Below are positions 26,163 to 30,766 of a stretch of 45,159 nucleotides of DNA, in pieces. Both the position numbers and the translations under genes were made by a program. Under the pieces are notes generated by a model, which searched no databases, had not been told where the DNA came from, and was given only the letters and a program-made list of their open reading frames with translations. Every line of letters begins with the position of its first letter. Position 1 is the stretch's first letter. The stretch comes from Candidatus Nitrosopolaris wilkensis (GTDB lineage Archaea > Thermoproteota > Nitrososphaeria > Nitrososphaerales > Nitrososphaeraceae): NCBI GenBank assembly GCA_003176995.1, contig QHBN01000004.1:1-45159 (forward strand), given 5' to 3'.

Positions 26163-26236
26163 GGGCCGGTCGTCTAGTCCGGTAGGATGCGGCATTGGCA
26201 TTGCCGAGGTCGTGGGTTCGAATCCCACCCGGTCCA
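26163..26236 (+). tRNA. tRNA-Ala (anticodon GGC)
   Basis: The acceptor stem GGGCCGG/CCGGTCC contains the G3-U70 wobble pair that identifies tRNA-Ala. The anticodon stem CGGCA/TGCCG closes the loop TTGGCAT with anticodon GGC. The T arm GTGGG-TTCGAAT-CCCAC is perfect, the discriminator is A, and CCA is not encoded. No intron. Confidence 0.95.
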
Positions 26237-26286
26237 CCTCTCTTTCATTATAGGTTTCACTAGTAGCGATAAAGACACTAATAGTG

Positions 26287-26820
26287 CTAAGAACTATTTT
26301 CGGCTTCAATCTCGAGGTTGACGTTCGAATCTATATCTGATGTAAAACATTCCTTTATTTCAATGGCGACTTTGCCGTGGTGGATAATATGATACACTCT
26401 AAAAATCGATTTGGATTTCGAATTGTAACCTATTTTAATTATTTTTCTGAATGTTTCTAATTCATGACCTATAATTATATTTCCGATGCCTAGGTTCTTT
26501 CTTTTAATCTGATTTATGATATCTCCAGGTATATTCTCTAGAAAAAAGCGCGACCTTGCATTGACTAGCGTTTCGCCGGTCTTCTTGCTGGCTATGCAAA
26601 CATCTCGCAGTATGAGTTCGCGATCCTCTGTTTGTTTTAAAACATTCACTATGGTTTCTGAATTCGTCAATATACTCAATATCTGTTCGACTGTACCTGT
26701 CTCAGCCAAAAGAATTTTTTTCGTAACAGGTAATTTGATATTCGACTTGTTTTCGAGTTCAGAAATCTTTTGTAACATATGACTTCCAAAATCCCTTACC
26801 ACAACAGATACTATGACCAT
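26287..26820 (-). CDS. Chorismate lyase-like protein (DUF98/MJ0807-type)
   Basis: A 177-residue protein resembling the archaeal chorismate pyruvate-lyase family (DUF98), which in methanogens makes 4-hydroxybenzoate from chorismate. Supporting patterns: KILLAETGTVEQILSIL at the start of the domain, RELILRDVCI and ARSRFFLENIP in the middle, IGNIIIGHELETFRKIIKIG, and the ending RVYHIIHHGKVAIEIKECF with the conserved Arg and Glu. It starts with ATG at 26820. It lies 60 nt after the UbiA-like gene on the same strand, with an intervening T6 tract, so it may be a separate transcript. Family assignment is by eye; product and pathway are inferred. Confidence 0.6.
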   Translation of the reverse strand: MVIVSVVVRDFGSHMLQKISELENKSNIKLPVTKKILLAETGTVEQILSILTNSETIVNVLKQTEDRELILRDVCIASKKTGETLVNARSRFFLENIPGDIINQIKRKNLGIGNIIIGHELETFRKIIKIGYNSKSKSIFRVYHIIHHGKVAIEIKECFTSDIDSNVNLEIEAENSS

Positions 26821-26880
26821 CCACGACCTCTCTACTAACAGTACAATAATTAGAAAGTAGTTGTAGTATTAAAAAACGAC

Positions 26881-27582
26881 CTAAAAGATGACCCTAAGGA
26901 AGATGGCAGCAAAAGCAGCTGCTATAGTTCCTAAACTAATTAGTTTGAGATACACTTCCAATCTTTTAGCTCGCCGCTCGTTTAACCTCTTCCTTCTTAG
27001 TTCTTTGTATGGCCTGGATATTCTAATATGCATGTAGCTGACTAGGGCCGCGCACACAGACATTATGATTGGCAACGTTCCAACACCATTCGTCTGCATT
27101 ATGTATCCTCCTAACACAGGAAGAGCCCCCCACGAAAAAACAAATCCAAGATCATTATGCAAGACCCCCTTAAATAATTCAAAGTTATATGCAAAGACGA
27201 AAAAACCTTCTAGGGCAGCGACGACTACAAGCAAGGGGACATGAAATATTATATAATAAATTCCGATCGAATAGGCTATGGCTAGACTCAAAATTATTAA
27301 CAGCCATAACTGCATTGCGCTAAAGTACCTTCCCCACGGCTTATTTTTTTTTGATCCTAAATTGTCAGCAGCATGAGCCGACACGCCTAAGGCTAACCCG
27401 TATATTAGGGCTATGGCAGCAACCCTATCCCATTGAATTGTAGATGATAGCATCGCACCTATGATAGTAAAAGATACGCACATCCCGGTATAAGGTAAAA
27501 ATAATAAACCAACAAATGCCCGGAATTTTAGTGAGCCAAACTTAGGTACGAACCATTCGTTCAAACGAGAGTCTTCGTTCAT
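26881..27582 (-). CDS. UbiA/MenA-like integral membrane protein
   Basis: A 233-residue polytopic membrane protein with about seven hydrophobic segments, resembling the UbiA prenyltransferase superfamily. The segment after residue 130 (NFELFKGVLHNDLGFVFSWG, then LPVLGGYIMQTN) resembles the second half of MenA, with its short spacing to the GxY-x-QT pattern. The usual first Asp-rich motif NDxxD is replaced by AHAADN at residues 69-74. It is shorter than typical UbiA (about 290). The ATG overlaps the stop of the methyltransferase gene by 4 nt, so the two are translationally coupled. Prenyl transfer is plausible but unproved because the catalytic motif is atypical. Confidence 0.6.
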   Translation of the reverse strand: MNEDSRLNEWFVPKFGSLKFRAFVGLLFLPYTGMCVSFTIIGAMLSSTIQWDRVAAIALIYGLALGVSAHAADNLGSKKNKPWGRYFSAMQLWLLIILSLAIAYSIGIYYIIFHVPLLVVVAALEGFFVFAYNFELFKGVLHNDLGFVFSWGALPVLGGYIMQTNGVGTLPIIMSVCAALVSYMHIRISRPYKELRRKRLNERRAKRLEVYLKLISLGTIAAAFAAIFLRVIF

Positions 27583-28331
27583 GGCTTGTTGGCCGAAACA
27601 ATGGCGGACGTTCTCATGGTGTAGAATCTGAAGGATATGTTCTTAAACCCAGTACCTTCTAGCGCCTGCATGGTTTGTCCAAGCCAGCTACTCATTTTTA
27701 CAACCTGATCCAACTCTTGGAAAACTGGCGCCCACGAAGTTGCTGTTTTGGCAGCCGATCGCAATACCTTAAAATAGCCATTCCAAAGGCTTCTGGCCAA
27801 GGGGTTGGACGGATAAGTAAAGTCGTGGAAAACCACGATACCTCCATGTTTAAGGACACGCCAACACTCACTCACTACTCTTTCAATATCGGCATATTTT
27901 GCTAGATAAGATGATGTGACCGAATCGAATGATTTCTCTCTGTACGGCAACACCTCTGCTGTCCCGTTTGTTAGCAGTCCGGTGCTGCACTTTTTTTTTG
28001 CGGTTCGCAGGTAATCGAATGTCAAATCAAGACCGACCACACTTCTTGGTCTTTCTCCTCCATGATTCCCACGGTGCTCTATCAGCGAAGATAGTATTCC
28101 TGTCCCAGATGCAAGGTCCAGATGCATATGAGCTGGAAGATCATCAGAACAAGGAGAGGAAGAACAAGGAGAAGATAGATGGTGTTTATCGATAACATCC
28201 AGAATCTGCCTTTTCCATAGGTAGTCCTGACCAAAAGTGGCGATACGTACGACGGTATCATAACTGGAAGCATTCATAGATGTGAAGAATCTTGAAGCCC
28301 TTCTGTGTCCGTCATGTACCTGTGACACCAT
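27579..28331 (-). CDS. UbiE/MenG-like SAM-dependent methyltransferase
   Basis: Class I methyltransferase similar to UbiE/MenG, which C-methylate quinone rings. In the 250-residue reading motif I is LDLASGTGIL (71-80), followed by VVGLDLTFDYL, GTAEVLPYREKSFDSVT and ECWRVLKHGGIVVFHDFTYP, then the C-terminal region typical of UbiE (FQELDQVVKMSSWLGQTM). The ATG at 28331 follows GAAGGGAG; a TTG at 28391 extends the frame by 20 residues and cannot be excluded. Residues 53-65 hold a short Ser/Cys-rich loop (SSPCSSSPCS). It is coupled to the UbiA-like gene, which supports a shared quinone or similar prenyl-aromatic substrate. Confidence 0.72.
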   Translation of the reverse strand: MVSQVHDGHRRASRFFTSMNASSYDTVVRIATFGQDYLWKRQILDVIDKHHLSSPCSSSPCSDDLPAHMHLDLASGTGILSSLIEHRGNHGGERPRSVVGLDLTFDYLRTAKKKCSTGLLTNGTAEVLPYREKSFDSVTSSYLAKYADIERVVSECWRVLKHGGIVVFHDFTYPSNPLARSLWNGYFKVLRSAAKTATSWAPVFQELDQVVKMSSWLGQTMQALEGTGFKNISFRFYTMRTSAIVSANKP

Positions 28332-28407
28332 CACTCCCTTCGATAGGATATGATAGTTCGGTATTTTAAGTATTGAAACTTTTACATTCAAGCATTCACA
28401 TATAGTG

Positions 28408-28415
28408 TTATAATT
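28408..28415. promoter_or_regulatory. Shared TATA-like palindrome between methyltransferase and kinase
   Basis: TTATAATT lies between the divergent UbiE-like and kinase genes and reads as a TATA-like element on both strands (AATTATAA on the minus strand). It could drive both, linking expression of the two sides. Confidence 0.3.
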
Positions 28416-28416
28416 C

Positions 28417-29139
28417 TTGTATTTCGTAAACTGGCAGAGAGATGTATCAGTTCAACAGTTGGACGGGCGCATGGTAGTTATAAAGAAAAATAAATTAACA
28501 AAGGATTTTCACGAATACCTTTTGGCGGCCACATATAGCATAATGTCCGTTCTGATGGCACATCCTTCCGCTCCTCCACCTGCAGGAAAGCTGGCACTGG
28601 GAAATGAAGGGAATGATATGAGGAATAATTTGAAAAGACTAGGAATTCCTACTCCCCTTCTCATTTCGATAACAGCCGACACGATCGTCGAGGAGTATAT
28701 AGGAGGGGGTAACCTGTATAAAGCGTTTGCAGACGAGGAGCACAAAAAAAATATTATATGCTCTTTGGCATTCCAAGCAGGCTCCTTAACGGGAAAGTTA
28801 CACAAAGCCGGCTACGTTTTTACAGATAATAAATCGCAGAACTATCTAGTAAATCCTGATAACTCTATAGTGCGAACAGATCTAGGATTTATTCACAAAA
28901 CGAATTCGGTATTCGCGCAGAGTATGGACATAGCATCATTTCTGGCAAGTGTCATAGACTTCGAGCAATCCCAATACGAGACAATAGAGAAAGGATTCCA
29001 TGACGGCTACACGTCAGTAGTTAGACGCAATTTTCCGTATTTGCATATACTCTTACGCAACATACTTTCGCTAGGTTTTGCGTCAGATCAATCTGCGATG
29101 CTCCAAAATATGGCGAAAGGCCTCAATACAAAGAAGTAG
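28417..29139 (+). CDS. Bud32-like atypical protein kinase
   Basis: A 240-residue small kinase resembling the Bud32/RIO/lipopolysaccharide-kinase group. The catalytic loop is HKAGYVFTDNKSQNYLV, with His129, Asp137, Lys139 and Asn142, and the metal motif is DLG at 155-157 (RTDLGF). The N-lobe is very short (VVIKKNK with the likely ATP-binding Lys). The first codon is TTG 28417; ATG 28471 and TTG 28459 are later options, favoured if the TATA at 28408 is used. It is divergent from the UbiE-like gene. It is not obviously the Kae1-associated Bud32 of the KEOPS complex, since that motif set is only partly matched. Target unknown. Confidence 0.6.
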   Translation: MYFVNWQRDVSVQQLDGRMVVIKKNKLTKDFHEYLLAATYSIMSVLMAHPSAPPPAGKLALGNEGNDMRNNLKRLGIPTPLLISITADTIVEEYIGGGNLYKAFADEEHKKNIICSLAFQAGSLTGKLHKAGYVFTDNKSQNYLVNPDNSIVRTDLGFIHKTNSVFAQSMDIASFLASVIDFEQSQYETIEKGFHDGYTSVVRRNFPYLHILLRNILSLGFASDQSAMLQNMAKGLNTKK

Positions 29140-29174
29140 AAAAAAGAAGAAAAAAAACTGCAACAGAAAAAAAA

Positions 29175-29567
29175 CTAAATTGGCGGCAATTCAGTTTTTC
29201 TATCAAAACCACCGGACCCGAATTTGCAGTAGAAACATTGGTCAGATTGCATATACGGAATTTTTTGAATAACTACTGCGCCGATCTTGAGGGCGATTTT
29301 TGTCATTACTCTATATTTAAAGGGCATCGCAGGAATGACTTCGTGAAAATATACATTGTAATGATCAGGACACAGCTTGAGGGTAACTTGCGCCTTCTGC
29401 CTGGTTTCTTGGCTCACCTCTCGATTGTTGCTTACTGTCTTGGTAATATTGATCTGCTCTCGAATATACTCGTGTTTGGGACATGGGCAATCCTTGCCAC
29501 CAGGATGCTTATAAGCAGGAATATTTTTCCAGTCGAAATCAGGAAAATCCTTCTCGAAATCCTCCAT
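29175..29567 (-). CDS. Cys-rich hypothetical protein
   Basis: A 130-residue protein beginning MEDFEKDFPDFDW. Potential metal ligands occur as CPCPKH (Cys27, Cys29, His32), LCPDH (Cys66, His69) and CFYC (Cys111, Cys114), suggesting bound zinc or an iron-sulphur cluster. The segment before the last pair is hydrophobic and could pack inside the fold or form a membrane-associated helix. It starts with ATG at 29567. It is transcribed toward the kinase 3' end. Family not recognised. Confidence 0.6.
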   Translation of the reverse strand: MEDFEKDFPDFDWKNIPAYKHPGGKDCPCPKHEYIREQINITKTVSNNREVSQETRQKAQVTLKLCPDHYNVYFHEVIPAMPFKYRVMTKIALKIGAVVIQKIPYMQSDQCFYCKFGSGGFDRKTELPPI

Positions 29568-29665
29568 CTAGTGATCTCCTACGAGTACTAGAATCTCATG
29601 TCATATAAACATGTATATATGATGCATCTTGGGGCAAGGCGTCAGGCTACAAGCCACTACTCCAA

Positions 29666-30766
29666 ATGAGAAAAAATATATCCTCGGTAATACAAGAAAC
29701 TACATTCGACGTGGGACTGGACCAATATAGTACCGACAATGGAGGCACATCGGCGACAGCAGCGGCTGCGGCTGCGGCTACGACAACTGCCACTAGAACT
29801 CCAAGAAAGAATCTTGAGCGCGATCATCATTCTGGATTAGATTCGAATCTTACGACACTTATCGACTTCAAGAAGGCGTTGTTAGAAGAACAGAAAAAGG
29901 GGGAGGAACGAATTCAGGAGCTGAACAATAGCATCGAATCCGCTAAAAAGCAGATAGACGATGAAAGAGTCCAGCTAGAGGAGTTCCGGGTTAAACTGAA
30001 GCAAACAAATGAACAAAAGGACACGGAATTAACTCGGTATACTGAAATGAAAACTACCCTCATTGAAGCCAGAAATCGAATGAAGTCGATGGACGACAAA
30101 GGTGGCTCTGCGGCAGCAGTGAAATCACGCAGAGATAGATATGACATGTCAAAATTGGCTAAAAACCTGGAGCAGATCGAACGCGACATCCAGACTAAGA
30201 AGTTGACGAAAGATGAGGAACGCAAATTAGTTGCCAGATCAAAAGAAATCGCAACCAAGCTGCATTCTCTCAACGCACTTCACAAAAAAGAAGATGATTA
30301 TAGAAACATGTCATCACAATATGAAGGCTTAAGAACGAAAATGAATAAAATTTTCGACCAACGGTCTGATTTTGGTAATAAAATTGGTAATCTTAAAGCT
30401 AACCTTGATACACTTCTGAATTTGCGTGAGAGTCTTTATCAAGATAGGAGGACAATAATTCGTGCAGTAAGGGAGGCCAAAGCAAAACTGGAAATGGTAG
30501 AGACTCAGCTCAATGCAATTCAATTTAGAAAATCGCGACAAGCGGCTGCCGAAAATCGTCAGAGAAGACAACAATATCAACGACGTCAACCGCGTGACAA
30601 TGAGGAGAGACGCGAGAGCTTACAGGAAAGGTCAAGGAGAAACAGGGAAAACCAAGAAAGATGGAATATAATGAAGGAAGCTGCTTTAAAGAAGATGTCA
30701 AGCGGGGAAAAGTTAACCTTCGATGAGATGAGATTAATCTACGATGAAGGTAGCTCTTCGGACTAG
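29666..30766 (+). CDS. Large coiled-coil protein
   Basis: A 366-residue, highly charged protein dominated by coiled coil (about residues 65-290, Lys/Glu/Gln heptads) and a basic Arg/Gln-rich segment near 285-330. The first 50 residues are Ala/Thr-rich low complexity (the alanine/threonine run lies near 30-46, coded by gcg/gct/acg repeats). The C-terminal KEAALKKMSSGEKLTFDEMRLIYDEG resembles the end of an archaeal coiled-coil family often mislabelled phosphoserine phosphatase. It may act as a structural or nucleic-acid-associated protein; this is inferred from composition. It starts with ATG 29666 with no close TATA identified. Confidence 0.75.
   Translation: MRKNISSVIQETTFDVGLDQYSTDNGGTSATAAAAAAATTTATRTPRKNLERDHHSGLDSNLTTLIDFKKALLEEQKKGEERIQELNNSIESAKKQIDDERVQLEEFRVKLKQTNEQKDTELTRYTEMKTTLIEARNRMKSMDDKGGSAAAVKSRRDRYDMSKLAKNLEQIERDIQTKKLTKDEERKLVARSKEIATKLHSLNALHKKEDDYRNMSSQYEGLRTKMNKIFDQRSDFGNKIGNLKANLDTLLNLRESLYQDRRTIIRAVREAKAKLEMVETQLNAIQFRKSRQAAAENRQRRQQYQRRQPRDNEERRESLQERSRRNRENQERWNIMKEAALKKMSSGEKLTFDEMRLIYDEGSSSD

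Follow-up and report, generated by a model that had tools for sequence, protein, structure and literature searches.

A 45,159-nucleotide stretch of the genome of Candidatus Nitrosopolaris wilkensis (contig QHBN01000004.1, labelled C4 in our comparison set, from an assembly of 4.0 Mb; hereafter the window) carries three consecutive genes encoding a methyltransferase (MT), a membrane protein (MP) and a chorismate-lyase relative (CL). We lean, by a little, towards reading MT-MP-CL as an operon that makes, with an atypical UbiA, a prenylated aromatic membrane lipid distinct from menaquinone. The gene families, folds, motifs and conserved linkage are observed directly. A four-nucleotide overlap joins the MT stop and the MP start, and 60 nucleotides separate MP from CL; the coordinates and gene order of the original prediction (26287-29139), which also took in a divergent kinase gene, were all correct on re-check (Table 1). 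The closest relatives of MP fall within the Nitrososphaeraceae. Where handles are needed, C, G, L, f and g numbers stand for contigs, genomes, loci, families and genera of the comparison set, f2 being probably Nitrosopumilaceae, f3 Nitrosocaldaceae and g92 the Nitrosocosmicus-type genomes.

The case for MP as a UbiA-fold protein comes from its relatives and from its predicted structure. On its own the window MP gives no match to the UbiA Pfam family (PF01040), and single-sequence searches of Pfam and the PDB returned only noise such as VTT and CSC1, as did a profile search of the PDB; PF01040 is, however, matched by 39 of 58 aligned MP members at E<=1 (best 3.8e-8). An AlphaFold (AF2) model of high predicted quality (local distance difference score, pLDDT, 91.6; template-modelling score, pTM, 0.89) has as its top Foldseek matches UBIAD1 and DGGGP synthase (8djk, 7bpu and 6m31 being the nearest solved folds) and archaeal UbiA homologues (AfUbiA), with a probability of about 1.0, TM scores of 0.5-0.57 and weak E-values of 0.02-0.3; soluble prenyl-diphosphate synthases are also among the nearest solved folds. 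UBIAD1/MenA and DGGGP synthase retain both motifs, NDxxD as well as DxxxD, and are built of about nine helices. MP, the nearest solved folds notwithstanding, differs from them in each respect: it carries AHAADN, the HxxD of which lies near the end of helix 2, at the place of the UbiA NDxxD(xxxD) that is missing from the window protein and its relatives; a near-invariant SRxYK stands near the end of helix 6, at the place of the missing second motif, DxxxD; and the chain ends at residue 233 after some seven membrane helices, short of the nine or so expected of a UbiA. The original call of a UbiA-like protein with AHAADN in place of NDxxD is supported.

Across 59 archaeal and bacterial MPs H70 and D73 of the HxxD motif are invariant, and with them R6, E9, W10, W83, E125, Y132, N133, E135, H142, S189, Y192, K193, E209 and K213. 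Conservation of so many residues suggests that MP is an enzyme rather than a decayed copy. Judged by model and alignment, MP has a UbiA fold with different motifs and is not to be classed among the canonical UbiAs. No MP was found on plasmids.

The assignment of CL to the DUF98-type chorismate lyases was borne out. The window protein matches PF01947 at 30.8 bits in a Pfam search (cut-off 22) and is the sole PF01947 gene product of its genome; a profile built from five CL relatives recovered the Archaeoglobus DUF98 structure 2nwi at 2.2e-10; and an AlphaFold model (pLDDT 89) matched, by Foldseek, both 2nwi (4.5e-10) and the chorismate lyase UbiC of E. coli (1jd3, 1.0e-5). CL therefore belongs, by Pfam family and by fold, with AF1396 (2nwi) and the chorismate lyase Rv2949c, and shares with UbiC the fold and key residues: R72 and E157 are invariant in alignments of 15 and of 31 sequences and correspond, by their positions in the RxVxI and IxE motifs, to R76 and E155 of UbiC. 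GntR/HutC regulators, which use the chorismate-lyase fold as a ligand-binding domain, also appear among the fold matches, and for that reason lyase activity is, from fold and residues, likely and not more than that. The genes for AF1396 and Rv2949c are not known to sit behind an MP-type gene as CL does.

MT was originally called UbiE-like, and so it is by PF01209 (67.5 bits against a cut-off of 20.1, E 1.4e-18), though it misses every quinone-methylase cut-off: it scores 88.6 against a cut-off of 216 and 86.1 against one of 158 with the NCBIfam UbiE/MenG models, and 68-73 bits against 335 with the model for MpqE, the UbiE-type methylase of the methyl-plastoquinone pathway of Nitrospirota, a phylum in which MP also occurs. 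The UbiE signature, the PROSITE pattern Y-D-x-M-N...S...H..W, reads YDTVVRIATFGQDYLW at the equivalent place in MT, with the same spacing and other residues. On these scores and residues MT is a relative of UbiE, not an orthologue. The median relative has only 230 residues, which points to an internal ATG near 28331 as perhaps, or even probably, the true start. Distances among MPs and among MTs correlate over 78 genomes (r=0.86), as expected of a jointly inherited pair.

The original prediction asked whether the genes stay together across the Nitrososphaeria; they do, far beyond chance. CL profile matches occur in 116 of 400 genomes of the order, and 93 of the 115 that could be placed lie 3-140 nucleotides behind MP on the same strand. 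MT accompanies MP in 78 loci and in three arrangements, among them 55 loci where it is 5′ of MP and codirectional with it and 21 where it is 3′ and on the opposite strand. These loci are related by descent, so that the counts are not independent events. The Nitrososphaeraceae repeatedly show the order MT-MP-CL, the genes being closely spaced or overlapping; in the probable Nitrosopumilaceae either MP-CL faces MT, or MP faces MT and is accompanied by a divergent cupin-like gene. The Nitrosocaldaceae have MT, then an NAD-dependent epimerase in the opposite orientation, then MP-CL, followed by a thioesterase-like gene, a polyprenyl-diphosphate synthase and a flavoprotein resembling geranylgeranyl reductase (GGR). 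One genome of a further family (f43) has MP-CL-polyprenyl synthase-GGR, and a distant archaeon (G014) has a polyprenyl synthase, an MP relative and a GGR in a row. The cupin-like gene (131 residues) is divergent from MP in several probable Nitrosopumilaceae (L034, L036-L040), and the member tested had no Pfam match.

Relatives of MP extend to bacteria. A scan of genome contigs recovered proteins some 50-57% identical from Nitrospirota, Manganitrophus, Thioalkalivibrio and other Ectothiorhodospiraceae, Nitrococcus, Geobacteraceae and Syntrophobacterales; many of these hosts are metagenome bins, and single placements need care. Among 33 bacterial loci MT is present in 21, a polyprenyl synthase in 11 and a GGR in five; a Geobacteraceae locus, L189, carries a set of four genes. 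Besides DDxxD the clustered synthases have a second DDxx[DEN] motif; the clustered GGRs have YxWxFP. The MP tree places the ammonia-oxidising archaea in a single clade (support 98/97) that follows their families, a topology that suggests old transfer between the domains and then mostly vertical descent in archaea.

Read most simply, the combination of a chorismate-lyase relative with a UbiA-fold MP and a UbiE-like MT, joined in relatives by a polyprenyl synthase and a GGR, would make a methylated prenyl-aromatic lipid. We infer every catalytic step, as well as the substrates, the order of steps and the product. CL would convert chorismate to 4-hydroxybenzoate and pyruvate; MP would join the aromatic acid to a polyprenyl diphosphate within the membrane; and MT would methylate the prenylated product. 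In the Nitrosocaldaceae, in a second archaeal family and in several bacteria, the added synthase and GGR-like flavoprotein would make the tail probably dedicated and saturated, while the window organism would draw its tail from the general isoprenoid pool. Both Asp motifs being altered, MP perhaps holds pyrophosphate by one metal bound to H70 and D73 together with the basic residues K81, R190, K193 and K213. A more ambitious proposal, which we advance tentatively and with less than even confidence, is that MP founds a UbiA subfamily with rebuilt HxxD and SRxYK motifs, making an undescribed methylated and often saturated prenyl-aromatic lipid common to ammonia-oxidising archaea, Nitrospirota, Nitrococcus and metal-cycling bacteria, apparently via interdomain transfer.

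Several observations tell against a prenyl-aromatic product made by these three proteins. Profile-profile alignment (hhalign) gave no match between MP and five UbiAs encoded in its own genome (probability 1.2), and the Foldseek E-values for MP are weak (0.02). UbiA catalysis is defined by two Asp-rich motifs, both of them altered in MP, which also lacks the last two helices (8-9); prenyl transfer by MP is therefore not assured. CL was not found in the Nitrosocosmicus-type genomes, in f49 or beside bacterial MPs, and a PF01947 gene is present anywhere in only 10 of the 22 genomes that were searched through bacterial MP loci; 4-hydroxybenzoate may thus not be the universal acceptor. Nor was a dedicated decarboxylase or ring hydroxylase seen travelling with the module genes, which leaves the label "quinone" unproven.

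The alteration of MP lends some weight to the thought that it is another kind of UbiA-fold prenyl-diphosphate enzyme – a cyclase, hydratase or phosphatase – and CL perhaps a non-lyase, ligand-binding relative in the manner of the GntR/HutC domains that surfaced in its fold search. The invariance of R72 and E157 in CL argues otherwise, and the partners, polyprenyl synthase, GGR and methyltransferase, fit a prenyl-acceptor product; we regard this alternative as decidedly unlikely. Unlikely too, if a little less so, is a second redox lipid, a ubiquinone- or plastoquinone-like benzoquinone hydroxylated and decarboxylated by enzymes encoded elsewhere. The enzyme logic is that of the 4-hydroxybenzoate-based quinones, MP-bearing Nitrospirota make unusual plastoquinones (PMC12324825), and flavoproteins of disulfide-oxidoreductase type follow MP or MP-CL in some genomes; yet no hydroxylase was seen travelling with the module, MT at 68 bits is not MpqE, and UbiD is present in two copies in most MP-bearing genomes and likewise in G003, a complete genome of this order that has no MP. 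That the module genes are chance neighbours with no shared task is scarcely credible: the kinase and some flanking genes do follow general Nitrososphaeraceae synteny, but the same genes occur in different orders across several archaeal families and three bacterial phyla. With arrangements that differ and genes spread over families, comparison of the loci excludes chance adjacency.

A different question is whether the cluster supplies the archaeon's menaquinone, as originally suggested, being a missing quinone route to the respiratory menaquinone or its replacement. Genes for a ring source, a UbiA-like and a UbiE-like protein do stand in a row; menaquinone is documented in these archaea, and is taken as general in ammonia-oxidising archaea by work cited in PMC10030591; and the saturated tails of archaeal quinones would need a GGR, such as is seen in related clusters. 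We nonetheless hold the suggestion to be improbable. What chorismate lyase provides is a benzene ring rather than a naphthoquinone, the scores of MT are far below the MenG/UbiE cut-offs, and mqn-type and MenA-like genes are present elsewhere. Contig C132 of the same genome (L100:9970-13280) holds together an MqnD-type PF02621 gene, MqnC (439 bits, cut-off 428) and a second radical SAM gene that fits MqnC/MqnE below both cut-offs (387 against 428 and 381 against 435), and a MenA-like UbiA lies on contig C42. The MP-free G003 keeps a PF02621 gene and an MqnC/E-type gene. By manual count, 59 of about 70 f1 genomes have a strong MP, but only part of the probable Nitrosopumilaceae do. With mqnC/D/E-type genes and a MenA-like UbiA encoded elsewhere, and with so patchy an occurrence of MP in the latter family, MT-MP-CL does not look, on gene content, like the core menaquinone route.

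Futalosine genes in Thaumarchaeota were reported by Zhi et al. 2014 (PMC3914697). Other ammonia-oxidising archaea likewise retain mqnC/D/E-type genes. MqnA, the first futalosine step, was not found: the window genome has a single PF02621 gene, and so has almost every relative with such genes. No MenB of the classical men route exceeded its cut-off. Of the prenylated-ring cluster as originally conceived, then, the families of CL and MT, the UbiA-like MP and the conserved neighbourhood survive, and menaquinone supply and membership of the kinase do not. In the deeper lineages f44, f45 and f50 two PF02621 genes adjoin each other. The mqn genes of Nitrosocosmicus-type genomes are only about 6-16 kb away from the MT-MP pair (L108 and L111 with L076 and L079).

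Among the closest known systems is the start module of ubiquinone synthesis, UbiC-UbiA-UbiE, which draws on the same three enzyme families. The differences are in MP, which lacks both UbiA Asp motifs and two helices; in MT, with its changed signature residues and scores below the UbiE cut-offs; and in context, no UbiD, UbiX or hydroxylase partners having been seen with the module and CL not having been found in about a third of MP genomes. The Candidatus Nitrosocaldus cavascurensis genome paper of 2018 (PMC5797428, Fig. 8 legend) names CHLP, GGPS, UbiC, UbiA, RmlB and UbiE on one of two integrative conjugative elements. These are apparently the genes of our locus L031, which is probably from that genome. 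The cluster is thus not wholly "undescribed", as first labelled, since it apparently already bears labels in that figure; in the accessible part of the paper there are labels only, and MP motifs, distribution, structure and function are not analysed. In L031 (4970-14101) the genes that flank the module are, by inspection of the sequence, a conjugation-type ATPase and one resembling topoisomerase IA, which agrees with the conjugative element described in the paper. No other paper on the cluster was found in the literature searched, which scarcely covered subscription journals.

What emerges is a strongly conserved candidate lipid module of ammonia-oxidising archaea and of nitrifying and metal-cycling bacteria, the product of which is not described in the literature searched; once found, it would be a membrane lipid, and perhaps a biomarker, for nitrifiers. 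MP offers a test of whether UbiA-fold enzymes can work without the Asp motifs. The module is now set apart from menaquinone synthesis, for which the mqn genes indicate a route of futalosine type, albeit one whose MqnA has yet to be found.

Table 1. Genes of the module and the adjoining kinase in the window.
Gene	Position	Strand	Description
MT	27579..28391	minus	UbiE/COQ5-like S-adenosylmethionine-dependent methyltransferase, first operon gene; PF01209 1.4e-18
MP	26881..27582	minus	UbiA-superfamily membrane protein, about seven transmembrane helices, HxxD and SRxYK replacing the two Asp motifs
CL	26287..26820	minus	UbiC/DUF98 (PF01947) chorismate lyase family protein, last operon gene
Kinase	28417..29139	plus, divergent from MT	Bud32-like; syntenic neighbour

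The kinase had been thought to echo the UbiB/COQ8 proteins that help quinone assembly. It scores 55 bits against the archaeal Bud32 model TIGR03724 (cut-off 125), and the true Bud32 is encoded elsewhere in the genome (contig C260, 212 bits); its match to ABC1/UbiB (PF03109) is partial, at 23.3 against 22.9 bits, and Bud32 models score higher. The kinase adjoins MT in 25 loci, all of them Nitrososphaeraceae by record or kinship, a family in which a number of unrelated genes around the module are also conserved. A role as a UbiB/COQ8-like assembly factor was rejected for lack of linkage outside that family; the kinase appears to be a Bud32 paralogue and syntenic neighbour, and is probably not a member of the module.

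Other neighbours recur more sparsely. Flavoprotein genes of disulfide-reductase type with CxxxxC lie near MP, mostly just downstream (L131, L132, L135, L144, L148, L091, L092, L185), and genes with a ChrB C-terminal domain lie near MP in distant genomes (L041, L091, L092, L164). A role in metal resistance, considered on account of the ChrB-like and disulfide-oxidoreductase neighbours of a few genomes, was dropped, as such neighbours recur only in small subsets. In the window a tRNA-Ala (GGC) gene on the plus strand (26163-26238) lies about 50 nucleotides past the end of CL and is a possible integration site. On the other side the kinase and two further genes (29175-29567 and 29666-30766) form a block (28417-30766) that adjoins the module and is conserved in Nitrososphaeraceae only.

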